Made by a program: the position numbers and the translations under genes | Assembly: GCA_012520975.1 (NCBI GenBank) | Contig: JAAYNF010000091.1 | Span: 1-35,230, forward strand | Reading direction: 5' to 3' | DNA from: Clostridiaceae bacterium | Lineage (GTDB): Bacteria; Bacillota; Clostridia; Saccharofermentanales; UBA5734 | DNA length: 35,230 bases | Shown here: positions 346-10,955 of the stretch, one piece after another | Layout: each line of letters starts with the position of its first letter | How positions within the stretch are numbered: the stretch's first letter is position 1 | The notes under the pieces: generated by a model | Told to the model about the DNA's origin: nothing | Databases searched by the model: none | What the model saw: the letters and a program-made list of their open reading frames with translations, nothing else

Positions 346-406
346 AAAATATAGGTAAGGTTGCAAAGACCGGGGAGAGAAAATGCATTGCAATCTTGCA
401 ACCTTA
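341..406 (-). terminator. Terminator of the recombinase operon
   Basis: On the minus strand, a perfect 11-bp stem (positions 396-406 with 356-366) starts at the stop codon of the last recombinase. It encloses a 29-nt loop and is followed by CCTATATTTTTTTAC. The T run directly after the stem supports intrinsic termination. The stem sequence contains GGTTGCAA, the same octamer that recurs in the 9.6-kb control region. Confidence 0.7.
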
Positions 407-1996
407 GATTTCGACGGTTATATCCTTGCCGACGAAGAAAGTGAAAACCAACCTGCCATCGCTGAATACGGTGATGTGGTCGACAGTCTTTCCGAATCGG
501 TTCTCGTTGAATACCAAATCCATATCCGGCAGCTCCATGATTTCAAACAGGAATCCGCTTAACACGTCGGCCTTGAAATCCCGCTCATCCTTCTCGGCCT
601 GCAGCAGGTCAAGCCCCTCTTTTGTTTTTTCGTAGCGCTCTACCAGACCGTTGTAATGAGCATTGTATTCTTCCTGATCTATGGCGCATGAGGCATTGTC
701 GTCGATGCATTTCTTGATGAGGCCGGCAACAACCTCCATTTCCTGCTGGACTTCGGCCATCTGCTTTGTAAGCTTTGTCGTGTCCGCAAGCTCTGCCTTT
801 AGCAATCTACCGTCCTCGATAAACCGTTCCCGGTCAACTATCAGGAGGCTGAGCGCCATTATATAGGCATCCTTTATCTGCTCCTCCGTTAAGTGCGGTG
901 TGGAGCATTTTTTGTCTTTATCCTTGAACTTGGCATTGCACTGCCAGATGACTTTCCGGTACGGGTCATTGGAATGCCAAACCTTAGGGCCGTAGGCTTC
1001 ACCGCAGTCACCGCAGATAATCTTTCCGGAAAAGATGCTTCCCGTGAACCGGCCTTTTGACGAGTGCTTTCGTCTGCGCATCTCTTTGTCGACTTGATCC
1101 CATTCTTTAGGATCGATGATTGCCGGATGTGATGCCGTCACATAATACTGTGGAACTTCGCCTTCGTTTACCTTCATGGTTTTCGTGAGGAAATCCGTTG
1201 TAAATTTCTTTTGAAGTCTTGCATCGCCTTTGTACTTTTCGTTTGTCAGAATGCTTTCCACAACTCTGGTCTGCCACACAGACTTGCCGGCCGGAGTGGG
1301 TATACCTTCCTTCGTAAGTGTTTTAGCAATACGGCTGGGTGAACTTCCATCAAGGAACATCCGGTAAATTCGTTTCACAATTTTCGCCTGTTCCGGATCA
1401 ATCTCCATCTGCCCCTCGGCACCTTTGCGGTAGCCAAGGAACTGGCTGTACGCGACACTGTATTTGCCATCAGAGAATTGCTTTCGTTTACCCCATGTGA
1501 CATTCTCCGAAATGCTCCGACTTTCCTCTTGAGCTAATGAACTCATAATAGTAAGCAGAAGTTCACCTTTACTATCAAAGGTCCAAATCTGCTCCTTTTC
1601 AAAATAGACCTCAGTTCCGTTTTCTTTCAGTTTACGAATGGTAGAAAGGCTGTCCACAGTATTTCGAGCGAACCGGGATACAGATTTTGTGATTATTAAG
1701 TCTATCTTTCCGGCAATAGCGTCGGAAATCATTTCATTGAAACCAGTACGGTGTCGTGTGTTAGTGCCGCTGATGCCTTCATCCGTATACACCGTAACGA
1801 ACTCCCATTCCGGATTGGCCTGGATGTAATTGGTGTAATAATCGACCTGAGCCTCATAGCTTGTGAACTGTTCGTCACTGTCTGTGCTGACACGAGCGTA
1901 ACCGGCCACCTTCCTCCGGGAAAGCTGCTTGATATGTCTCCGGGTCTGAGGATTGAATGTGGCAGGGATAACCGTCACATTTCTTGTTGTTGCCAT
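404..1996 (-). CDS. Large serine recombinase (site-specific integrase family), 530 aa
   Basis: DNA strand exchange enzyme expected to integrate and excise the element. The N-terminal resolvase-type catalytic domain (about residues 28-175) shows YARVST with catalytic Ser37, the arginine motif SVSRFARNT, and the ESRSISENV helix region. A recombinase domain follows (LGYRKG onward), then a zinc-ribbon-like part with CGDCG and a later pair of cysteines near residues 330-365. A charged, coiled-coil-like segment near residues 400-470 and a C-terminal tail complete it, as in serine integrases. The start at 1996 is supported by AAGGAGGTG 5 nt upstream. It is the last gene of the minus-strand operon, 51 nt after the second recombinase, and ends at a terminator. 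The catalytic motifs look intact. Confidence 0.93.
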   Translation of the reverse strand: MATTRNVTVIPATFNPQTRRHIKQLSRRKVAGYARVSTDSDEQFTSYEAQVDYYTNYIQANPEWEFVTVYTDEGISGTNTRHRTGFNEMISDAIAGKIDLIITKSVSRFARNTVDSLSTIRKLKENGTEVYFEKEQIWTFDSKGELLLTIMSSLAQEESRSISENVTWGKRKQFSDGKYSVAYSQFLGYRKGAEGQMEIDPEQAKIVKRIYRMFLDGSSPSRIAKTLTKEGIPTPAGKSVWQTRVVESILTNEKYKGDARLQKKFTTDFLTKTMKVNEGEVPQYYVTASHPAIIDPKEWDQVDKEMRRRKHSSKGRFTGSIFSGKIICGDCGEAYGPKVWHSNDPYRKVIWQCNAKFKDKDKKCSTPHLTEEQIKDAYIMALSLLIVDRERFIEDGRLLKAELADTTKLTKQMAEVQQEMEVVAGLIKKCIDDNASCAIDQEEYNAHYNGLVERYEKTKEGLDLLQAEKDERDFKADVLSGFLFEIMELPDMDLVFNENRFGKTVDHITVFSDGRLVFTFFVGKDITVEI

Positions 1997-2047
1997 AGTA
2001 GCACCTCCTTGTGCGAAAAATGCAGTAATGAAATTATTGATGTATAT

Positions 2048-3352
2048 TTAAGTGGATGAATCCAGCTTTGTCTTCGATTGTCGTTTAAGCGTTTTCTCCC
2101 TGGCTGACGCTTTCATGTCATCCGTCCAGCTTTCTGCTCTGGAACGGTCCTGCCATCGTTTAACGGTTTCTCTACCGTCGGCAAGGCAGAATACCAGTCT
2201 ATTGTCGTTCTTTGCTCTGATTGCCGTTATTTTGTCGTGAATCGTTTCTATGTTGCCGATAACCTCTTCGGTTACTGCAATAAGCGTTTCCTCCGGGATC
2301 TGTTTTGATGGGCAGGATGTTTTTCCTTTTATGTTGAAGGTGCTGCAAATCCAAACCACACCGGAACGAGTGACTTTCCTGCGATAATGCTTTCCGCAGT
2401 TGTCACAGACTATGAGGCCGGAGAAGGGATAGCGGTTAGTGTATACTTTGTCTTTGGGAGCGTATTTCCCTGCGCGGCGTTCAATTTCAGCCTGCACCGC
2501 ATCGAACTCTTTTGCGCTGATTATTGCCTCATGAGTTCCGGTGGCACTGTATTTAGGAAGCTCCCCATTGTTTTTCAGTGTACGCTTTGTAAGGTGGTTT
2601 TCGCGGTATGTCTTCTGCAGGAGAAGGTTTCCCGTATAGGTGCTGTTTCTGAGAATTCCTCCGACAGTATGTTGGTGCCATTCATTCCCGTATCGGGTTT
2701 TGATGCCGTCAGCATTCAGCCCGTTCATAATGGCCACGACGCCTTTGCCCGAAAGGTATTCTCGGTAAATGCGGCGTACGATTTCAGCTTCTTCCGGGCG
2801 AATCACATATGCTCCGTTTTGATAGCGATAACCGAGAATTGTGCCGTCCCAGGGACTGCCTTCTTCGAATTTCTTTTTGATTCGCCATTTCATATTCTCA
2901 CTGGCAGACCGGCTTTCAGCTTCTGCATATCCGGCGAGGATCGTCATCATCAGTTCACCGTCTGCGGAGAGTGTGTGGATATTCTGTTCTTCAAAGAAAA
3001 CGTCCACCTCAATCGCTTTCAGTTCCCGTACAGTGTTCAGCACTGTTACTGTATTTCGGGCAAAGCGTGAGATAGACTTCGTAATGATCATATCCACTTT
3101 TCCAGACCGGCAGTCTGCAAGGAGCCGTTGGAAATTCTCTCTTGAATCTATCGTTCCGGTCTTGGCTTCGTCGGCGTATACACCGACATACTGCCAGCCT
3201 GGGTGCTTCTGTATCATTTCACTGTACGCACTGACCTGGGCAGATAACGAATGGAGCATTGCGTCTTTGCCGGATGAAACTCTCGCGTATGCAGCAACCC
3301 GTTTCAGCCTCGGCGCTTGTTCAGGGAATGAAACCTGTTCAATCTTTGCCAT
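2048..3352 (-). CDS. Large serine recombinase, shorter paralogue, 434 aa
   Basis: Second member of the same family. YARVSS carries the presumed catalytic Ser26, SISRFARNT is the arginine motif, and AESRSASENM closes the catalytic domain. A recombinase domain (LGYRYQNGAY onward) and a zinc ribbon (CDNCG with a later WICS and SCP) follow. Unlike its neighbour, it ends soon after the ribbon with a short basic tail and lacks the long coiled-coil segment. The start at 3352 has AAGGAGG upstream. The two proteins are clearly paralogous but well diverged. Adjacent serine recombinase pairs are common in clostridial mobile elements and may act together or in opposite directions. Which one integrates cannot be told here. 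Confidence 0.92.
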   Translation of the reverse strand: MAKIEQVSFPEQAPRLKRVAAYARVSSGKDAMLHSLSAQVSAYSEMIQKHPGWQYVGVYADEAKTGTIDSRENFQRLLADCRSGKVDMIITKSISRFARNTVTVLNTVRELKAIEVDVFFEEQNIHTLSADGELMMTILAGYAEAESRSASENMKWRIKKKFEEGSPWDGTILGYRYQNGAYVIRPEEAEIVRRIYREYLSGKGVVAIMNGLNADGIKTRYGNEWHQHTVGGILRNSTYTGNLLLQKTYRENHLTKRTLKNNGELPKYSATGTHEAIISAKEFDAVQAEIERRAGKYAPKDKVYTNRYPFSGLIVCDNCGKHYRRKVTRSGVVWICSTFNIKGKTSCPSKQIPEETLIAVTEEVIGNIETIHDKITAIRAKNDNRLVFCLADGRETVKRWQDRSRAESWTDDMKASAREKTLKRQSKTKLDSST

Positions 3353-3413: not shown

Positions 3414-3635
3414 TCAAGCTATTTCTGTAAATATACTTCCCGGCGGGAAACCGTATTTTTTAGAGAGAATTTTGACTGATTTTCGATAATCCGCAGGGGT
3501 TAAAAGTTCTTCCTGCACCATACGTTCCACTAGTGACAACGACGTGTGGTACATCAGTAGATTCTCATAACTGTAAGGGTCTGCGGGAATCGAGATAACA
3601 TTCACGGCAGCAGAATTTGCGGTCTTTGTTGCCAT
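3414..3635 (-). CDS. SHOCT-like small protein, 73 aa
   Basis: The body matches the short helical SHOCT-like pattern found beside recombinase genes: LSLVERMVQEELLTPADYRK, then a lysine-rich helix ending in KKYGF. The N-terminal MATKTANSAAVNVISIPA resembles the leaders of the recombinases. The ATG at 3635 is chosen because AAGGAG lies about 10 nt before it; a GTG at 3656 would extend the frame by 7 residues but lacks a site. It overlaps the end of the upstream HTH/zinc gene by 71 nt in another frame and is 61 nt before the 434-aa recombinase, so it is translated from the same operon. A role as recombinase accessory or directionality factor is only an inference from position. Confidence 0.7.
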   Translation of the reverse strand: MATKTANSAAVNVISIPADPYSYENLLMYHTSLSLVERMVQEELLTPADYRKSVKILSKKYGFPPGSIFTEIA

Positions 3636-3945
3636 ACGATATAAACTCCTTTCCACACTGACTGCAGGTCAGCGTATAAAATGCTTTGCGTTTAACTTCA
3701 TCCTGATGGGAATTCCACCAGGCCATCCTGCACTTATCGGAGCAGTATTTCTTTGCTTTGTGGCCATCGAACTGCTTGACTGGTTTCCCGCAATTCAAAC
3801 AGGTACGGGCGTTCGGCAGCTTGGGGTGCCTTCGGATATGGGAATACACGGTATTGGGTGACAAATGCAGCCGGGAGGCAATCTCGGCAGGAGTAATGCC
3901 GTCCAGACGCATATTTTCTATTGCAAGCTTATCCTGTGGTTTCAT
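3565..3945 (-). CDS. HTH and double zinc-ribbon DNA-binding protein, 126 aa
   Basis: Residues 1-42 form a helix-turn-helix of the sigma/resolvase type (ITPAEIASRLHLSPNTVYSHI). Two short cysteine clusters follow: CLNCGK with CSDKC, then CSQCGKEF with CCREC, each like a small zinc ribbon. The start at 3945 has GGAGG 6 nt upstream; a longer frame up to 3987 has no ribosome site. It is placed after the capsid gene and before the recombinases, which suggests a regulator or DNA-structure protein of the satellite. The overlap with the 73-aa gene is large (71 nt), but both frames look genuine. Function beyond DNA binding is unknown. Confidence 0.75.
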   Translation of the reverse strand: MKPQDKLAIENMRLDGITPAEIASRLHLSPNTVYSHIRRHPKLPNARTCLNCGKPVKQFDGHKAKKYCSDKCRMAWWNSHQDEVKRKAFYTLTCSQCGKEFISYGNKDRKFCCRECYLDSRRPLQL

Positions 3946-4004
3946 ACTGTTCCTCCAATAAATGAGGAGGACAGCCGAAACAGCCATCCTCCCCGAAATG
4001 GTCC

Positions 4005-5042
4005 TTATACGGTTTCTTTTACTTTCAGTACCTTTATTGCTTCCGGACGGACCAGCTTACCGTCCACACGCTGCGTTGCAATGAATCCGACTTGTCCGTA
4101 ATCGGCATATCGCTCTGTGAGGCGCTTGATGATACGTTTGCCACGGTCACCGATCCAGAAAAAGCTGAAGTCACCGAATAAAATCGGATAAGTGCTGAGG
4201 GAAAATCCGGGTTCAGTGCTGTCGAGATGATTGGAAAGATATACTCGGTAACCGAACAATGTATCGTAACCGTCGGCCTTGATGTTGGAGTTCCAGATCA
4301 AGCGGCCACTGGCGGTGCGGGTCTTCCTGAGCGTCTGGTATACCTTTTCGGACATTATGAAAGCTGTGTTTTTCCCGTGACGGTACGGCTGCTTAAGTGA
4401 ATAAACGAGGTCGATGACATCATCGATACACACTTTCCCGGCTTCAGCGGTTTCGGTTCCGAGCTGTGCCTGATAAATCAAGCCCGTAGGCTTTCCGACA
4501 CCGTCTCCGGTAAGAAAGGCTTCCTCCTCGGTACGCCCCATATCCTCTCCGAAACGCTTTTTAATATATGCCTCGAGATCAATGCCGGAATCCTCGAGGA
4601 GCTCATCGGATACGAGAATCTTCGTACCAAGCTTATACGCTTTCAGCGTAATCTGACCGAATGTTAAGTCCGAATCCGGATAAGCATGAGACTCGTCGAC
4701 CCATTGAGCGGAACCTCCGTCCTCAGTTCTTGTAATTTTCAAATCGTGGTCGGTATGTTTGATCGTGGAAATGCCACGAAGAATGTTGTTCTCGTACATA
4801 GCCTCGACCAGCTTCATATTGTATTCATCCGGCACAAGATATCCGCCCGAGCCATCACTCCCTTCACGGAGAGCATTTTCAGGAAGTCCGGTGTACATAT
4901 GCTCCCAGTATGCCTTGCTGTAGGCAGCGTCTTTCTTGCGCTTAGCCTCTGTCGCTCTTGTAGCTTTGATCTCGGGTGTGATTCCGTCCATTTCTTCCTT
5001 CATGGCCTGAAGGCGGGCGCTGTATTTTTCTACTGTATTCAT
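4005..5042 (-). CDS. HK97-family phage major capsid protein, 345 aa
   Basis: Shell-forming subunit with the HK97 fold. An alpha-helical, charged N-terminal stretch (about residues 1-60) resembles a short delta/scaffold region. It is followed by GSGGYLVPDEYN, the usual start of the mature fold. Further typical segments are LGTKILVSDELLEDS, the EEEAFLTGDGVGKPTGL loop, AFIMSEKVYQTLRK, the YRVYLSNHL strand, and the late IGDRGKRIIKRLTERYADYGQVGF region. The start at 5042 has GGAGG 8 nt upstream; the in-frame ATG at 5057 has none. The delta region is shorter than the roughly 100 residues usual in HK97-like proteins, and no prohead protease or portal lies nearby. It sits 26 nt after the terminase small subunit, so the pair is co-expressed. 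In this context it probably belongs to a phage satellite, not a full prophage. Confidence 0.92.
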   Translation of the reverse strand: MNTVEKYSARLQAMKEEMDGITPEIKATRATEAKRKKDAAYSKAYWEHMYTGLPENALREGSDGSGGYLVPDEYNMKLVEAMYENNILRGISTIKHTDHDLKITRTEDGGSAQWVDESHAYPDSDLTFGQITLKAYKLGTKILVSDELLEDSGIDLEAYIKKRFGEDMGRTEEEAFLTGDGVGKPTGLIYQAQLGTETAEAGKVCIDDVIDLVYSLKQPYRHGKNTAFIMSEKVYQTLRKTRTASGRLIWNSNIKADGYDTLFGYRVYLSNHLDSTEPGFSLSTYPILFGDFSFFWIGDRGKRIIKRLTERYADYGQVGFIATQRVDGKLVRPEAIKVLKVKETV

Positions 5043-5068
5043 TTTGTATTCCTCCATAATGTAGTTTG

Positions 5069-5620
5069 TTATATGCCTCTGCGGGCGCGGAGCAAACGCT
5101 CCATGACGTCGTCCTGCGGAGTGGGACCGCTGTAGTCAACAGTGCAGTTTTCCTTTACCACCTGATAAATATGAAACCAGGCATTATTGGCCTGTTTCAT
5201 ATACTCCCTTGCGATGGTGACATAGGGAGAGGAAATTACCGTTCCGGTGGGTTTCTTTGCAAGGAAACCATATTCGGAAACTGCTTCCTCGCACTGTACC
5301 CAGCGTCCTACACACATGGCGTACTGTTCAATCAGAAGCGGGGAAATAAGGTGGTCGCATTTGCGCTCATGCAGCCATTCCCAGGTTTCTTTGAAAATCT
5401 CTTCAGCACAGGTGACGCTGCCGTCCTTTTGCTTGGCTTTGAGATAATCCTTAACGGGTGGCATTTCCGCGCCTTTCAGACATTCGGCTTCATCACCGAA
5501 GTCAATATGGGTGAGTTTTCTGCCGCCGGGGTTCCCGGATTCGATTTTTTCAGAGATCGCTTTCGGTTTTCTGCCCGCTCCGGGACGGGAACCTCCGCGA
5601 TTTGTTCCGTCTTTCGACAT
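5069..5620 (-). CDS. Phage terminase small subunit, P27 family, 183 aa
   Basis: DNA-recognition subunit of the packaging motor. The N-terminal GGSRPGAGRKPKAISEK basic motif is the signature of P27-type TerS proteins. It is followed by the helical body with EIFKETWEWLHERKCDHLISPLLIEQYA and a C-terminal segment with PVPT-like SGPTPQDDVMERL. The start at 5620 has GGAGG 7 nt upstream. No large terminase subunit is encoded in the window. A lone TerS next to a capsid gene fits a satellite that redirects a helper phage's large terminase to its own DNA. The 149 nt between this gene and the HNH gene contain no further convincing gene. Confidence 0.88.
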   Translation of the reverse strand: MSKDGTNRGGSRPGAGRKPKAISEKIESGNPGGRKLTHIDFGDEAECLKGAEMPPVKDYLKAKQKDGSVTCAEEIFKETWEWLHERKCDHLISPLLIEQYAMCVGRWVQCEEAVSEYGFLAKKPTGTVISSPYVTIAREYMKQANNAWFHIYQVVKENCTVDYSGPTPQDDVMERLLRARRGI

Positions 5621-5769
5621 GCTTCTACCTCCATTTTGGTATAAGTTTCTTTTTTTTTGCGTTTGATTTCGCTATTTTTGCGTACGTGACCCTGCGCCGT
5701 TTCTGAAGGAAAAGACCTGTAGAGATTTATATCCCCCCACCCGGTCACAGCAGTCGTTTAACGCTTATT

Positions 5770-6117
5770 TCACCTGTCACCGAGAGCAATATGCCTTTTG
5801 TTATGACAGGAGCGGCAGAGAGCGCGAAGGTTACTGTCGTCATGAGCCCCGCCACAGGACAGTGGAAGAATGTGGTGAACCTCAGCTGCCGGAGTGAGCC
5901 GACCGGAATCAAGACAGTCCTCACAAAGAGGATGCATTCTGACATACCGTTCACGTATCTTCTGCCATGCGCCGTGATACTGCTTCATTACATCCGGATT
6001 GCGCTGATACTTGTCGTACTTCCTCCGTTGCGGGATTCGATGCAGTTCACAGTACTGGCTCTCAGTTAGATTCGGACAACCGGGATAGCTGCATGGTTTC
6101 AAAGGTTTACGAGGCAT
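5770..6117 (-). CDS. HNH endonuclease, 115 aa
   Basis: Phage-type HNH nuclease. An N-terminal zinc-binding pair (CSYPGC with SQYC) is followed by the tyrosine-rich KYDKYQRNPDV segment. The nuclease core has CEDC, EVHHILPLSCGGAHDDSNLRALCRSCHNKRH; the two histidines of VHHI and the CRSCHN motif are the beta-beta-alpha metal finger. In tailed phages such proteins sit next to terminase and stimulate cos-site cleavage, and the position here directly before TerS fits that. The start at 6117 is chosen for GAGG 9 nt upstream and overlaps the end of the previous gene by 11 nt. Longer in-frame starts would run deep into that gene. Confidence 0.88.
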   Translation of the reverse strand: MPRKPLKPCSYPGCPNLTESQYCELHRIPQRRKYDKYQRNPDVMKQYHGAWQKIRERYVRMHPLCEDCLDSGRLTPAAEVHHILPLSCGGAHDDSNLRALCRSCHNKRHIALGDR

Positions 6118-6469
6118 CTGCACCATCCTCAAAAAAGATCGTGCGCTTCTCATTCTTGAGATAACCGTAGCGATCAAAATCTTCAGGCTTGATGGATTCA
6201 GCCTTTTGACGGAGCCATTCGGCCCACTTGCCAATCTCTTCCTGAGGAACGGATTTCACAATCTTAATCATGCGATTTTTATCGTGCCAGAGATAAAGCG
6301 TGGCTCTTTTACGAAGGCTTAACGTGTTGACACCGGAAATCTCAAGGTCAAAGCCGTTTCCAAAATCACGATAAATTACTTGAGATAAATCGATAACTGT
6401 AATTCTGTATTCTGGCCCGAGTTCTTTGCACAGCGATTTCATGTGCTGGCTGGGTTTTGAAATGTTCAT
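6107..6469 (-). CDS. Conserved satellite protein of unknown function, 120 aa
   Basis: I do not recognise the family. The protein is soluble, with a beta-rich first half (RITVIDLSQVIYRDFGNGFDLEISGV, TLYLWHDK) and a helical second half (EIGKWAEWLRQKAESI). The start at 6469 is well supported by GAGGAGG 8 nt upstream. The gene lies between the replication protein and the HNH/TerS/capsid block and overlaps the HNH gene by 11 nt, so translation is probably coupled. Position suggests a replication or packaging accessory role, but nothing in the sequence proves this. Confidence 0.75.
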   Translation of the reverse strand: MNISKPSQHMKSLCKELGPEYRITVIDLSQVIYRDFGNGFDLEISGVNTLSLRKRATLYLWHDKNRMIKIVKSVPQEEIGKWAEWLRQKAESIKPEDFDRYGYLKNEKRTIFFEDGADAS

Positions 6470-6707
6470 TGAATTAACCTCCTCGTTTTTTTTTTGCTTA
6501 TATAATTATCACCGGATGATTATCCGGCGCGGATTTTCATGTTGTCTCAGATTTACGGCATTTGTCTATGCTTCTGTGACTTTTGTCCTTTCTGTCACGC
6601 TGTCCCCGTAGGAAGCAGAGAATATATATAAAGAAGAAAAAGCTGTTTTCTTTCTTTTATTGCTCATCTGCGTTACATAAAGGACAAAAGGACAAAAAGG
6701 ACGAAAG
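6470..6707. other. AT-rich repeat-bearing spacer, candidate replication origin
   Basis: This is a gene-free spacer between the replication protein and the next gene. It holds three direct copies of AAGGAC at 6680-6685, 6688-6693 and 6697-6702, embedded in A runs. An opposite-strand copy, TTTTGTCCTTT, lies at 6581-6591 and matches AAAGGACAAAA at 6679-6689. A GTGAC/GTCAC pair flanks the inverted copy (6576-6580, 6594-6598). Other elements are a perfect CCGGAT/ATCCGG hairpin at 6512-6527, an AT-rich run at 6620-6631 and an A/T-rich inverted repeat at about 6630-6657. Satellite and plasmid origins often sit next to the replication gene with such iterons and an easily melted stretch. The hairpins could instead be transcription attenuators. 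Confidence 0.4.
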
Positions 6708-9212
6708 TCAGCAAGCAGTCTCATTTTCGTAGATACAAGGATTGACAATATAGGACTGCGCAGGCGGCCTACCTTTTCCGGAGTATATTCCGGACTCTTT
6801 TATGGCGATGTAACCATAATCGACAAGGTGGTCAAGTACCGGCTGAAGGTCATCCGCCTTTTTGAAGCTGCGACAGAGACGCATGATGTCACGCTTATTG
6901 AACTCTGCCAGCCCGGAATTCTTAATTGCATTCAGAACATATTTGCTCTGCTTGATGGTGTTATCTGCTCCCATCAGGGAAAAAGCGGCTTTTGCGTGTG
7001 AGATAAAATATCGTGCTATGCGGATTGCGTTTGCCATTGTAGCGGCGTCTATTACCAGCGGCTCCGGCACGTCAAGAAAATCATGACTGCGGAATACAGA
7101 TGCCCGACACAGCAGTCCGGCGATGCGGTGCGTATTACCGATAAGCTTTCCTGCCCAGTCACTGATGTCGGAATACTCTTCTTTAAGCTTAGGCTCCAGT
7201 TCACCGGCGAATGTTTCTATCATCCTGTCCGATTCCGGTGAAAGCGTAATGATCTCAGGTTCATTGGAATACTCGTCTTCCAGCATATTTCTGATCTGTA
7301 TTTCATACGCCCGGCTGACTTCGTCGGGGACCGGAGCGGAGCGGTATTTCCTGCTTCCGACATAAGAAGCGGGAATGCAGTACAGAAATCTGGCTGTAAG
7401 ACCACGACCGCGGAAAGTGTCATTCTTCATCAGCCCGGACAGTACGCTCGGCTGTGCCATCAGAAGTATCGTCAGCGCCGGGTCCATGACACTTTCGCTG
7501 CATCTGCCGATTCTGTCGACCTTGATACAGTCCCCGGAGTATCCCTTGAGAATCACATCGATATTGACATTCCTGGTATAAATACCGGCAAGAGTATCGA
7601 AGATACCGCCTTCAGTTGAGAGGATCGCCGCCCTGCCGTCATTGTCGGACAGAACCTGTGTAAGTTTTTCCGTAGTGACATCGTCTACATACAGCCGGAG
7701 AGGTTTCTTTTCTCTGTGAGCTGTGATTTCCTGAACGATACTGTCAAGTTCTGCTTTGACATCTTTGCCCTTGGCTGCTTGATCTTCAAGTGCTTTCTGC
7801 CTGCGCTCCATGATACGACCACGCATTTTACTGGATTCGATCTCTGCAGCGTTCTGCGTATTGATCTCGGACTCAAATTTGTTTATGGGTCGCACCATTG
7901 CATTTTCCACAGCGGATTTTCTCTCGGACGGTTCCATGATATTCAGAACAAAGGTGTTCACAGGCTCATACCAGTCTGCCTTTGCACGGACTTTGTATTT
8001 ACCTTGAATGCAGACCGAAATGACCGGTAGCGCTGACGAGGCTGCCATATCTACAGGAGTCTGGGTACTTTCTGCCAGTGCAACCACGTAATCTGCAATC
8101 ACTTTCGGTAGAGCGTCAACCGGAAACTCCGGCAGTGAACACTCATCGAACGGAATTGGTTTTTCCCATGCGCTTTCTGCCTGCTTTTCGGTATGTACAA
8201 GTGTGACCGGGGTTTTTACACCGCAGTCCCTACCGCAGTTAAAGCGAAGATGATTCTTGATGTACTCGCAGGTCACCGGCTTGTTTTCCTGTGCGGCGTG
8301 GATGTATTTTCTCTGCGTTTCTGCGTGTGTATAGCCGGGATACGGACTGCTGATCTCATGGATGACACTCTCGCCATCGGCTGTCTGCGCAAGGTTCGTG
8401 ATAGCCGCATACCAAACGGGCTCCGGCAAATTCTCGGCATCATCCCTACAATGCTGCAGAAATACGCAACTTTCAATCAGATCTCGTCCGCTGCCTGTTC
8501 CCATAAGAGCAAAGCTATCCGTTTCGGTTGACCCGGCGGACTTTTTTACGGGCTGCACAGAAGTGTATTCATCAAAATCCGAAGGACTAAACCTGTTCTC
8601 CGAAAAAGAGGTTACCTTACATACAGGCAGTTCAGCTGTTTTGTGGTTTAGAGTGCCGACAGCACGAAGCATTCGGGGAAGGTCGCTGACACTGTCGAAT
8701 TTCCAGCCATACTCCCGGAAGGCTTCTTCTTTTACGAAGCTCTCCCATCCCTTGAGGATTCGCTCAGCATAGACCCGGTCGGATTCGTTGCGGATATAAT
8801 AGATCTCATCAAACAGCCAGTAAGTATGGATTCCGTTTCCGGATTCTACGATTGCTGTCGGAACTTTCGGCAGCGACATAAGGAAAGCCATAAGTTCTTC
8901 CTTTGTTTCCGGAAGATTCTTCTCCTTATGGGCATCGCCTTTGATATCGAAATCTGTGTATGTTCCTATAACCGCAGCGATATCTTTATTGCTTCCGCGC
9001 AGGTGTTCACCGAGATTCTTCACACGGGGATTGACGCCGAAATAGGTGTTATATGTTTTTCCGGATTCGACAGCATATGCAGCCATCTCGTCAAGCTGCC
9101 CGAAATCGAACCATTTTGTTCTGGCTTTTCCGTCTTTCTCCAGCGTGGTTACGGACAGATATCCGCCATGCAACGTGCCGTAGACCTTCAGCAGAAATTC
9201 ACTTGTCTCCAT
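6708..9212 (-). CDS. Primase-like/DUF3987 replication protein, 834 aa
   Basis: Large replication protein of the satellite. The N-terminal third looks like an archaeo-eukaryotic-type primase domain: TDFDIKG near residue 92 supplies an acidic pair and ESGNGIHTYWLFD near residue 130 the conserved histidine block. From about residue 360, a DUF3987-type domain follows (LPKVIADYVVALAESTQTPVDMAA, then NIMEPSERKSAVENAM), whose P-loop has the non-canonical form EPSERKS. The C-terminal 80 residues form a winged-helix-like region (NSGLAEFNKRDIMRLCRSFKKADDLQPVLDHLVDYGYI). ATG 9212 is preferred; a GTG at 9221 is also possible. It overlaps the excisionase-like gene by 14 nt. A role in element replication follows from the family and position. 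Confidence 0.85.
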   Translation of the reverse strand: METSEFLLKVYGTLHGGYLSVTTLEKDGKARTKWFDFGQLDEMAAYAVESGKTYNTYFGVNPRVKNLGEHLRGSNKDIAAVIGTYTDFDIKGDAHKEKNLPETKEELMAFLMSLPKVPTAIVESGNGIHTYWLFDEIYYIRNESDRVYAERILKGWESFVKEEAFREYGWKFDSVSDLPRMLRAVGTLNHKTAELPVCKVTSFSENRFSPSDFDEYTSVQPVKKSAGSTETDSFALMGTGSGRDLIESCVFLQHCRDDAENLPEPVWYAAITNLAQTADGESVIHEISSPYPGYTHAETQRKYIHAAQENKPVTCEYIKNHLRFNCGRDCGVKTPVTLVHTEKQAESAWEKPIPFDECSLPEFPVDALPKVIADYVVALAESTQTPVDMAASSALPVISVCIQGKYKVRAKADWYEPVNTFVLNIMEPSERKSAVENAMVRPINKFESEINTQNAAEIESSKMRGRIMERRQKALEDQAAKGKDVKAELDSIVQEITAHREKKPLRLYVDDVTTEKLTQVLSDNDGRAAILSTEGGIFDTLAGIYTRNVNIDVILKGYSGDCIKVDRIGRCSESVMDPALTILLMAQPSVLSGLMKNDTFRGRGLTARFLYCIPASYVGSRKYRSAPVPDEVSRAYEIQIRNMLEDEYSNEPEIITLSPESDRMIETFAGELEPKLKEEYSDISDWAGKLIGNTHRIAGLLCRASVFRSHDFLDVPEPLVIDAATMANAIRIARYFISHAKAAFSLMGADNTIKQSKYVLNAIKNSGLAEFNKRDIMRLCRSFKKADDLQPVLDHLVDYGYIAIKESGIYSGKGRPPAQSYIVNPCIYENETAC

Positions 9213-9393
9213 CCTTTTCACCGCCTTCCGCTGCCCGATTGAGCCAGGCGCGGAAGCTATCGACCGGAATCAAGAATCTTGTTCCGACGCGCAAGACAGG
9301 AAATCCCGGCTGTTTGACAAGTCCGTACGCTTTAGCAAGGCTGATGCCCATATAGGCAGATAATTCCTGTACGCTTATCGTTGATTTTTCCAT
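9199..9393 (-). CDS. Excisionase-like helix-turn-helix protein, 64 aa
   Basis: A small winged-helix protein of the excisionase/MerR-like DNA-binding family (SVQELSAYMGISLAKAYGLV, then FPVLRVGTRFLIPVDSFRAWL). The pattern helix, turn, recognition helix, then VGxRxLIPxxxFxxWL is characteristic. The start at 9393 has AAGGAG 9 nt upstream. It is the first gene of the minus-strand satellite operon and follows a structured leader. It probably directs excision together with the serine recombinases, or regulates the operon; serine integrases usually use unrelated directionality factors, so a regulatory role is equally likely. Confidence 0.82.
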   Translation of the reverse strand: MEKSTISVQELSAYMGISLAKAYGLVKQPGFPVLRVGTRFLIPVDSFRAWLNRAAEGGEKDGDK

Positions 9394-9425: not shown

Positions 9426-9553
9426 GCATTCACCATACGTTATCGTTCCTAAGGTAGCCCCTTGCTTGAGGTCTCCTCGTGTTCGCTGCAGAAGCGCTCC
9501 GGTTGCACCATCATGGCGTCAAGCTTGCAGTGTTATCTTTGGCGGGTGAACTA
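9426..9553 (-). ncRNA. Structured leader RNA upstream of the satellite operon
   Basis: On the minus strand this strip folds into a compact multi-branched structure by simple pairing. The outer stem is UUCACC/GGUGAA (9545-9550 with 9429-9434). An inner stem GCUU/AAGC (9521-9524 with 9464-9467) encloses three hairpins: 9506-9518 (CGCC, loop AUGAU, GGUG), 9484-9496 (CGCU, loop UCUGC, AGCG) and 9468-9478 (GAGG, loop AGA, CCUC). A fourth hairpin, AAGG-GGCUA-CCUU, lies at 9451-9463. The strip lies between a predicted minus-strand promoter and the excisionase-like gene and has no coding frame of note. It may be an attenuator, an antiterminator or a separate small RNA. I could not assign it to a named family. 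Confidence 0.5.
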
Positions 9554-9578
9554 TTTAATTTTCAAGGTGCAAAAGTTG

Positions 9579-9608
9579 TTGACATTCTGTGTTCCAGCGT
9601 GATATTAT
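9579..9608 (+). promoter_or_regulatory. Rightward sigma-A type promoter
   Basis: TTGACA at 9579-9584 and TATTAT at 9603-9608 are separated by 18 nt. Transcription would begin near 9615 and read into the gene at 9740. The start region lies inside the first GGTTGCAA-type inverted repeat, so a bound repressor would block it. Confidence 0.6.
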
Positions 9609-9612
9609 TTGC

Positions 9613-9727
9613 TTGCAACCGATTGTAATTATTATTGGTTGCAAATGTATGATAGCAGATCGCTGCAACTGTTTCAATATACAAACGGTTGCGATTACCC
9701 CTTTATCAGTTACAAAAACGGTTGCAA
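9613..9727. promoter_or_regulatory. Cluster of GGTTGCAA-type operator sites
   Basis: Five related sites lie within 115 bp. TTGCAACC at 9613-9620 and GGTTGCAA at 9637-9644 form an inverted repeat whose arms extend to 11 bp with one mismatch. TGCAACTGTTT at 9664-9674 and AAACGGTTGCG at 9683-9693 form a second, imperfect one. ACGGTTGCAA at 9718-9727 repeats the right arm 33 bp further on and overlaps the ribosome binding site of the 9740 gene. The sites span both predicted promoters. They probably bind a dimeric regulator that controls lysogeny-like maintenance versus excision of the satellite; the identity of that regulator is not shown by the sequence. Confidence 0.6.
9649..9677 (-). promoter_or_regulatory. 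Leftward sigma-A type promoter of the satellite operon
   Basis: On the minus strand TTGAAA (9672-9677) and TATCAT (9649-9654) are separated by 17 nt. Transcription would begin near 9642, run through the structured leader and into the excisionase-like gene at 9393. It faces the rightward promoter, and the two starts are about 27 bp apart on either side of one operator. Confidence 0.55.
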
Positions 9728-9739
9728 GGAGAATGGAAT

Positions 9740-10507
9740 ATGAATACAGATTTATTTGTTGATGCGCATCCGACACAGTGCTTTTCTTGCATAGTGAATA
9801 ATTGCTCGGAATATAAATCAGAAGTCATTGATAATCAACTTTTTATCGTTGGGACGAAACCTAAAGAAGATAAAAAGCTCTGTACATTTAAGAGGACAGA
9901 CCGCACCAACATTCTTAGCTCACTGCTTTTGCTGTATGAGCAACTCACTGACGGCGTTTATGGGCACCCGGAAAAACTAACAGGTGCTGACATAGAAAGA
10001 ATATGCAAATGGTGTATTGCTTACGGGATGCCAGCTGAAGCTTCCGGGGATGCTGATATTTGGATGAAATATGGTAAGGTTGGTTTCCTGGCATCTTCGT
10101 TTGTGAACAGGCTTCATGATATTTACACATGCTATCTTCTTTGGAGAAAGGTCTATTTGCACGACACGGATATCAGAAACTTTTATGTAGAAAAAAATAT
10201 TTCAGACGAACAATGCATCGAATTCTTAAAATTCCACATGATGCAGCTCAATATCAAACTTGCTCCTGATTTCTCGGTTAGCCCTCCAACCTTCTTTTTG
10301 ATGTGCGATGATTTATTGGAGGTTGCAAAAGCACAGCTATTCTTTGAATGCATGTCGACAGACAGTTATTCGGTCGGGGTTTGTGTAGCGTGCGGAGCAC
10401 CATTTCCGAAAAAGCGAAAGAATAACACTCTTTGCGAAGCATGCCAAAAGACAAAGTATCAGCGCTCACGTGAAAAACAGCGCATGCTCAAAAGCAGTGA
10501 ACAATAA
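9740..10507 (+). CDS. Cysteine-rich zinc-finger-like protein of unknown function, 255 aa
   Basis: No family is recognised. The N-terminus carries CFSCIVNNC, and the C-terminus a zinc-ribbon-like CVACGAPFPKKRKNNTLCEACQ followed by a basic helix (KYQRSREKQRMLK). The middle is helical. This layout, a helical body plus a C-terminal zinc ribbon, suggests nucleic-acid binding. AAGGAG lies 8 nt before ATG 9740, and one operator copy overlaps that ribosome site, so the gene is probably controlled at that point, perhaps by its own product. It is the only gene transcribed rightward from the switch region and has its own terminator. A role as master repressor of the satellite, like Stl of staphylococcal islands, is inference from position only. 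Confidence 0.75.
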   Translation: MNTDLFVDAHPTQCFSCIVNNCSEYKSEVIDNQLFIVGTKPKEDKKLCTFKRTDRTNILSSLLLLYEQLTDGVYGHPEKLTGADIERICKWCIAYGMPAEASGDADIWMKYGKVGFLASSFVNRLHDIYTCYLLWRKVYLHDTDIRNFYVEKNISDEQCIEFLKFHMMQLNIKLAPDFSVSPPTFFLMCDDLLEVAKAQLFFECMSTDSYSVGVCVACGAPFPKKRKNNTLCEACQKTKYQRSREKQRMLKSSEQ

Positions 10508-10625: not shown

Positions 10626-10703
10626 TATTCGTGCGTATTAACGAATAAACTCTTGTTATTTGGAGAATTTTGCTGTATAATGTAAACGATGTTATGTTTA
10701 TTC
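10626..10703 (+). promoter_or_regulatory. Defence-operon promoter with flanking palindromic operators
   Basis: TTGTTA at 10653-10658 and TATAAT at 10676-10681, 17 nt apart, form a good sigma-A type promoter about 40 nt before the XRE gene. A perfect 7-bp inverted repeat TATTCGT/ACGAATA (10626-10632, 10641-10647) lies upstream of the -35. GAATAAAC (10643-10650) and its exact complement GTTTATTC (10696-10703) bracket the promoter. Such paired half-sites are expected for a dimeric XRE repressor, so autoregulation by the first gene product is likely. Confidence 0.65.
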
Positions 10704-10721
10704 ATTCATGAGGTGCATGTT

Positions 10722-10955
10722 ATGAAAGCAAGTTATAAAAAGCTATGGAAGATGCTGATTGACAAGGATATGTTGAAGAAAGATCTTCAAGCGAAAGCCC
10801 ATATCAGCTGGACATCCGTAACCAAAATGTCAAAGGGAGAGGATGTCAGCATGGAGGTACTGAGAAAAGTATGCAAGGCGCTGGAGTGCGATATTGGAGA
10901 TATTATTGAGATGATTCCTGACGATGAAGACGATCAGGCCCGAGGAGGTATATAA
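10722..10955 (+). CDS. XRE-family (Cro/CI-type) transcriptional regulator, 77 aa
   Basis: A compact helix-turn-helix of the Cro/CI type covers almost the whole protein: LWKMLIDKDMLKKDLQAKAHISWTSVTKM with a second half MEVLRKVCKALECDIGDIIEMI, the usual five-helix repressor-like fold. ATG 10722 is chosen for GAGGTG 6 nt upstream; an upstream in-frame TTG at 10689 has no site. It is the first gene of the plus-strand operon, and its last codons contain the ribosome site of the helicase gene 1 nt downstream. Small XRE regulators of this type head many defence loci and usually repress their own promoter. Confidence 0.9.
   Translation: MKASYKKLWKMLIDKDMLKKDLQAKAHISWTSVTKMSKGEDVSMEVLRKVCKALECDIGDIIEMIPDDEDDQARGGI

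Follow-up and report, generated by a model that had tools for sequence, protein, structure and literature searches.

A probable helper-dependent phage satellite of Clostridia with its own terminase small subunit and a scaffold-shortened capsid protein

A stretch of 35,230 nucleotides from a Clostridiaceae bacterium (contig JAAYNF010000091.1 of assembly GCA_012520975.1), called here the window, carries a chromosomal island that encodes a phage-type terminase small subunit (TerS) and an HK97-fold major capsid protein (MCP). The window makes up an entire contig (G000:C25), and the genome to which it belongs measures 1.99 Mb, is split into 176 contigs and is 96% complete. As read from its sequence, the island brings together integration and excision genes (two serine recombinases and Xis), a replication module, TerS with an HNH endonuclease, an HK97-type MCP without a recognisable phage-type scaffold (delta) domain, and defence cargo. 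It is probably a helper-dependent phage satellite whose TerS would redirect packaging and whose MCP would serve as capsid remodeller and interference protein, in the manner of Ccm from the staphylococcal island SaPIbov5, the defence cargo lying at about 10.7-35 kb. A wider proposition is evenly balanced, namely that two ancient, separately formed satellite lineages across Bacillota have independently domesticated a scaffold-stripped coat protein, which would act dominantly to switch the capsid and, as a subunit, poison phages; one of the lineages also has its own TerS.

Capsid proteins of islands and phages

The length of the MCP N-terminus separates islands from phages. It was counted as the residues preceding the GGYLVPDE core, from the most upstream start codon in every case. 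The 135 distinct MCPs compared all have 1.6 kb or more of sequence upstream, and a phage context was defined by TerL (the large terminase), portal or protease upstream of the MCP. All 103 phage-context proteins have at least 126 residues before the core (126-133 in all but one), whereas all 32 island-context proteins have at most 108, mostly 38-76, and the two ranges do not overlap; the window MCP has 71, against 127 in that of phage phi1605. A start-codon artefact was considered as the cause of the short N-termini and rejected, given that upstream-most starts were used for both groups and there was still no overlap. The profile of the phage delta domain matches no island MCP N-terminus. On these sequence criteria the phage scaffold domain is shortened or gone in island MCPs, and the rule of length and context that tells them from phage MCPs is new here. 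It was also considered whether islands that carry an MCP and no TerS (MCP-only islands, see below) encode a scaffold separately, ahead of the MCP gene; the small upstream open reading frames (ORFs) there are unlike a delta domain. The AlphaFold model of the window MCP (predicted local distance difference test, pLDDT, 85) has the HK97 fold behind two helices, and its closest PDB neighbours are the capsids of a gene-transfer agent, Mycofy1, EcCI2 (9gyi; a capsid-forming phage-inducible chromosomal island, cf-PICI) and HK97. Sequence identity to the MCPs of candidate helper phages is 42-46% (46% for phi1605).

Maximum-likelihood analysis of 52 MCP cores places the 22 island lineages in two clades and no others, both supported at 100/100, namely a TerS type (8 lineages) and an MCP-only type (14 lineages); overall bootstrap is not fully settled and the finer branching is not reliable. 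Island TerS proteins form a single clade (support 90/93), and the nesting of islands devoid of an MCP inside it implies that these lost the MCP. The ratio of nonsynonymous to synonymous substitution (dN/dS) in the MCP averages 0.09 in MCP-only islands and is mostly 0.07-0.23 in the W-type relatives (W-type denoting islands of the window's kind). Judged from their sequences, island MCPs are selected, island-resident genes and not debris.

Gene content and limits of the island

The island operon lies on the minus strand and runs from 9393 to 404, with the excisionase gene first and recombinase 1 last. Features of the window are as follows (aa, amino acids; L and G numbers here and below designate loci and genomes of the comparison set).

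404-1996, minus: large serine recombinase 1, 530 aa (Resolvase, Recombinase and Zn_ribbon_recom domains), final gene of the operon
2048-3352, minus: large serine recombinase 2, 434 aa (domain matches)
3414-3656, minus: small SHOCT-domain protein, 80 aa (PF20612, E 3.7e-7)
3565-3987, minus: helix-turn-helix (HTH) and zinc-finger protein, 140 aa (phrog_2308, E 6e-37)
4005-5057, minus: HK97-fold MCP with shortened N-terminal scaffold region, 350 aa (TIGR01554, E 3e-87)
5069-5620, minus: TerS of P27/Terminase_4 type, 183 aa (phrog_83, E 3e-31; Terminase_4, E 4e-8)
5770-6234 as listed, minus: HNH endonuclease (PF01844, E 8e-14), likely start near 6117
6107-6469, minus: conserved protein orf120, 120 aa (49-52% identity in L035, L175, L181 and L290)
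6708-9221, minus: primase-helicase of DUF3987 type, 837 aa (PF13148, E 6e-100; phrog_2373/2478)
9199-9393, minus: excisionase-like HTH protein, 64 aa (TIGR01764, E 4.5e-8)
9500-9735: iteron-like GGTTGCA/TGCAACC repeats, putative replication origin (read directly from the sequence)
9740-10507, plus: protein of about 255 aa with a C-terminal Cys cluster (ORF reading)
10689-10955, plus: Cro/CI-type regulator heading the cargo operon (PF13443, E 4e-20)
10924-35007, plus: defence cargo, five named proteins (PADLOC matches), assigned to the island from its relatives

An earlier sequence-only reading had proposed a minus-strand set of excisionase-like, primase, HNH, TerS, HK97-type capsid and two recombinase genes, and all of these match the expected families on that strand. 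Its interval of 3414-9393 was too narrow: the genes named are real, but the recombinases (404-3352) fall outside and the island probably continues past 9393. Counterparts in W-type island contigs share 58-61% identity with recombinase 1 and 54-71% with recombinase 2, which there too stands immediately before recombinase 1. Relatives also keep the SHOCT gene in the same position, the HTH/zinc-finger protein (55-62%) and the primase-helicase (58-65%). TerS of the window is 74-83% identical to that of other islands versus about 60% to that of phages, and the HNH gene precedes TerS as it does in phi1605. With ORFs as listed, 11 bp separate TerS from the MCP, whose translation probably starts at 5042 (an ATG behind GGAGG), giving 345 aa.

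On the left, the island adjoins a tRNA-Ala gene (50-125) and its terminator. The tRNA gene was considered as a split integration target and rejected; both it and the terminator look intact, which places the left end between about 170 and 404. A search of the window yielded no convincing direct repeats bounding the island, and the right end was not found in it, because the contig stops at 35230. The island probably extends beyond 9393, to judge from relatives in which a Cro-type gene and defence cargo likewise follow, and for this reason the stretch 10689-35007 is counted to it; with this cargo it seems to measure about 34 kb or more. Cro homologues lead the cargo in L035-L041, L045, L083, L084, L287 and L289. 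In the window the cargo comprises a DrmD-like SNF2 helicase, a IIG/DrmMI-like methyltransferase, a 2135-aa DruE-like helicase, a UvrD/GajB-like helicase and a PrimPol-DEAD-PLD protein. This mixture of DISARM-like (DrmD, DrmMI), Druantia-like (DruE), GajB/UvrD-like and PrimPol-DEAD-PLD components may represent a distinct hybrid system. No divergent Stl-like master repressor was identified within the window. GGTTGCA/TGCAACC motifs occur both upstream of the excisionase-primase operon (9500-9735) and beside the left end (356-406), and look like the iterons of a replication origin or binding sites of the recombinases.

The absence of large terminase and portal genes, claimed before for the operon, holds for the whole genome: the portal profile PF04860, the TerL profile PF03354 and a direct query with the phi1605-type TerL homologue gave zero matches across its 1.99 Mb. 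The same portal profile and TerL query do detect prophages in other island-bearing genomes, where these sit far from the islands or on separate contigs. Protease, tail and lysis genes are absent among the annotated island genes; the genome-wide search was not aimed at them.

Islands with TerS and islands without

That the element stands alone, as had been suggested, is borne out by relatives that keep its gene order without head genes and are not decayed prophages. L035 lies on a 3.585 Mb single-contig chromosome (G387) from a different family of the same class, in the order cargo, Cro, repressor, xis, primase (65%), orf120, TerS (75%), MCP (49%) and serine recombinases; its empty insertion site was sought within its genus, where no homologous flank was found. 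IMG/VR contigs L163-L170, L174 and L175, presumably of rumen origin by their sample numbers, share this order with TerS at 78-83%, MCP at 44-47%, the HTH/zinc-finger and SHOCT genes, and both recombinases wherever the contig extends that far. In L171-L173 and L176-L180 the same TerS island has no MCP, and TerS immediately precedes the HTH/zinc-finger gene. This makes the MCP an optional module, comparable to cpmB in the Staphylococcus aureus pathogenicity islands (SaPIs). In L164 (10500-10700) and in L177/L178, after recombinase 1, insertion is seen at the start codon of a small gene (MQVIKEGQLKQLREQYPAGTRVELIQ...). This gene presumably resembles the DUF4314 genes of conjugative elements, and some TerS islands may thus ride on integrative and conjugative elements. 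Islands also decay in place: the MCP is interrupted in L044 (G258), and both MCP and recombinase in L043 (G052).

The second island type, common across the phylum, encodes a D5-type primase, an MCP of about 300-335 aa and either a serine recombinase or a tyrosine integrase, with no TerS, TerL or portal (loci L036-L043, L045-L047, L049, L083-L085, L277-L290, L002 and L003). In one of its subfamilies both ends can be read and have conserved sequences, and at least three of the islands interrupt the loop of an intrinsic terminator of the host. Nine complete MCP-only copies measure 11,601-13,389 bp (mean 12,917) despite differing cargo, which varies by copy among type I, type III and IIG restriction-modification systems. 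A strictly constant size is not upheld, with G580 at about 14.3 kb and G387c, which has insertions, at 16,922 bp; a ceiling near 13.4 kb fits the nine islands.

Three further observations concern particular loci. In L036, L037 and L039 (G387, G232), islands with a 550-aa serine recombinase split the arms of a terminator, for example with AAAACCGGC before the island and GGGCCGGTTTTTT after it; a literature search on terminator-targeting recombinases found no description of such a choice of terminator loop. L002, L085 and L283 are compact islands of about 7-8 kb with a tyrosine integrase, repressor, xis, D5 primase, scaffold-less MCP and a homologue of the 'virulence-related protein' of phi1605, most of their genes being 74-89% conserved between independent sources. 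L274, L275 and L276 are IMG/VR contigs of 12.9-13.6 kb that consist of one island and its flanks, which are about 122-125 bp long at almost all ends (215 bp at one). This structure points to assembly nodes, with the element occupying more than one site in the sample.

Mode of action and alternative explanations

In SaPIbov5 the capsid-protein homologue is Ccm (355 aa), whose delta domain falls 44 residues short of that of the helper. No other protein of the island is required to turn phi12 capsids into small T=4 shells. Ccm sits at the pentamers, does not assemble into capsids by itself and, when expressed alone, cuts the phi12 titre 10^3-10^4-fold (PMC5052747, PMC8569155). Since this anatomical feature recurs in two further lineages, there without any recognisable phage-type delta domain, a Ccm-like role is the best reading of the island MCPs. 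Candidate helpers are the phi1605-like phages, because their TerS and MCP belong to the same families and because full-length MCPs of that family are over-represented in island-bearing genomes of the phylum sample. Genomes G300, G303, G431 and G484 each contain an MCP-only island together with a phi1605-like prophage. Infection by such a phage, or its induction, would trigger excision and replication of the island. Island TerS would pair with helper TerL and so select island DNA for packaging, with the HNH protein joining TerS in directing TerL, while the island MCP would co-assemble with helper MCP, portal and protease, so that the geometry of the capsid changes and heads of the helper are poisoned, as happens with Ccm; by this analogy a mixed shell of the kind already envisaged by the sequence-only reading is plausible. 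Helper tails and lysis would then release the particles, and the DISARM/Druantia-like cargo would guard the host against other phages.

Several points weigh against this scheme. No resident helper prophage was found in the window genome. The over-representation of full-length MCPs (5/12 versus 26/386, p=0.001) comes from a test that ignores phylogeny, and in the class sample it is not significant (3/13 versus 38/378, p=0.15). The MCP is not essential to the TerS-island family. A PDB search with the profile of this MCP family returned no SaPIbov5 entry, and so no sequence match to Ccm, at E 0.01; the mechanism accordingly rests on analogy. Size reduction is doubtful for the window member, at least about 34 kb being too large for a capsid of one-third size; the misfit could reflect a large-headed helper, an MCP used mainly for interference, or cargo that is partly a separate insertion.

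This last difficulty bears on a different use of the protein, in which the satellite travels in full-size capsids and its MCP replaces that of the helper without changing the size, for example to escape satellite-resistant or defence-sensing capsids. An island of at least 34 kb with its cargo would suit a large head, and SaPIbov2 (27 kb) does use large capsids (PMC5052747). However, loss of the scaffold makes assembly of the MCP alone unlikely, Ccm with its shorter delta domain being unable to form capsids by itself (PMC5052747), and the MCP-only relatives measure 11.6-13.4 kb; this explanation is quite unlikely. The MCP might instead be a stand-alone anti-phage weapon that poisons head assembly, on an island spread by its recombinases and by other elements and not by phage particles. 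Nearly every cargo examined contains a defence or restriction-modification system, many islands hold an MCP without TerS, and Ccm by itself blocks its helper (PMC5052747). Yet W-type islands maintain TerS as an island clade, a protein with no obvious use outside packaging, the islands carry a replication module and an excisionase, and the MCP-only islands are narrow in size, which leaves such a weapon an unlikely explanation. The relationship of TerS, HNH and MCP to the phi1605 group would also fit a prophage remnant from which TerL, portal, tail and lysis genes have disappeared, but decay is very improbable indeed when gene order is the same in independent genomes and metagenomes, relatives are under purifying selection, island clades are exclusive, the delta region is shortened in every island copy and no other phage remnants are seen.

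Relation to other satellites

Ccm of SaPIbov5 is the best-studied satellite use of a capsid-protein homologue against a helper. The islands suggest that this capsid trick arose at least twice more and is widespread in gut and rumen Bacillota; if so, piracy of capsid subunits would be a common satellite strategy and not a staphylococcal oddity. The sequence rule used here (no phage-type scaffold domain, no adjacent head genes) can locate such satellites in any genome. The islands also open to testing the question of whether capsid size depends on how long the internal scaffold domain is, and they tie anti-phage cargo (restriction, DISARM/Druantia-like) to a proposed vehicle carried by phages. 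The literature searched does not describe these Bacillota families and yielded nothing relevant on gut satellites, the original papers on tycheposons, virion-encapsidated integrative mobile elements (VEIMEs) and cf-PICIs being outside that search; a partial overlap of these families with marine satellites may exist.

The sequence-only reading had contrasted the island with classic staphylococcal islands said to carry only TerS, thereby overlooking the cos-type SaPIs, in which Ccm is an orphan capsid homologue (PMC5052747, PMC8569155). Like the window, these elements (SaPIbov4/5) are chromosomal islands with an orphan HK97-type capsid homologue of shortened delta domain and neither portal nor TerL. 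SaPIbov5, however, has no TerS and redirects phi12 through a helper-like cos site, whereas the window has TerS (5069-5620) and HNH; Ccm is 19% identical to the phi12 capsid protein, against 42-46% between the window MCP and those of its candidate helpers; and unlike SaPIbov5 the window has serine-type recombinases, no recognisable phage-type delta domain and a large defence cargo. The pac-type SaPIs and other phage-inducible chromosomal islands (PICIs) share with the window excisionase, primase and TerS, as well as the helper dependence proposed for it, but pac SaPIs redirect size by CpmA/CpmB, which are unrelated to the capsid protein, and position and type of integrase and island size differ.

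Published PICI criteria (PMC6092414) describe an integrase-replication-regulator order, no phage structural genes and a size of about 12-15 kb, besides induction and packaging that depend on a phage. In the window, recombinases, primase and xis are conserved, but the recombinases are of serine type and at the other end; the MCP is an exception already known in Ccm-bearing PICIs, and MCP homologues are also noted in EcCICFT073 and PmCI172 (PMC6092414); and the size is about 34 kb or more, with 11.6-13.4 kb in the MCP-only family. Its serine-recombinase pair, previously thought unusual for PICIs, is less exceptional than that, given that the published detection model for PICMIs (phage-inducible chromosomal minimalist islands) accepts the serine-recombinase profiles PF00239/PF07508 (PMC10803314). 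PICMIs themselves insert next to fis and have no capsid gene, whereas the window has an MCP and tRNA-Ala as its left flank. The cf-PICIs (e.g. EcCI2) encode their own MCP, as the window does, yet encode all small-capsid and packaging proteins (PMC12409344), whereas the window is without TerL and portal. Phi1605-like prophages and phages of Bacillota have in common with the window the HNH-TerS module (TerS 60%) and the MCP family (46%), but unlike it possess complete sets of genes for head, tail and lysis and an MCP with its whole delta domain. By gene content, the island is thus neither a cf-PICI nor a PICMI, nor by size or integrase a canonical PICI; it resembles a cos-type SaPI, but one equipped with TerS.

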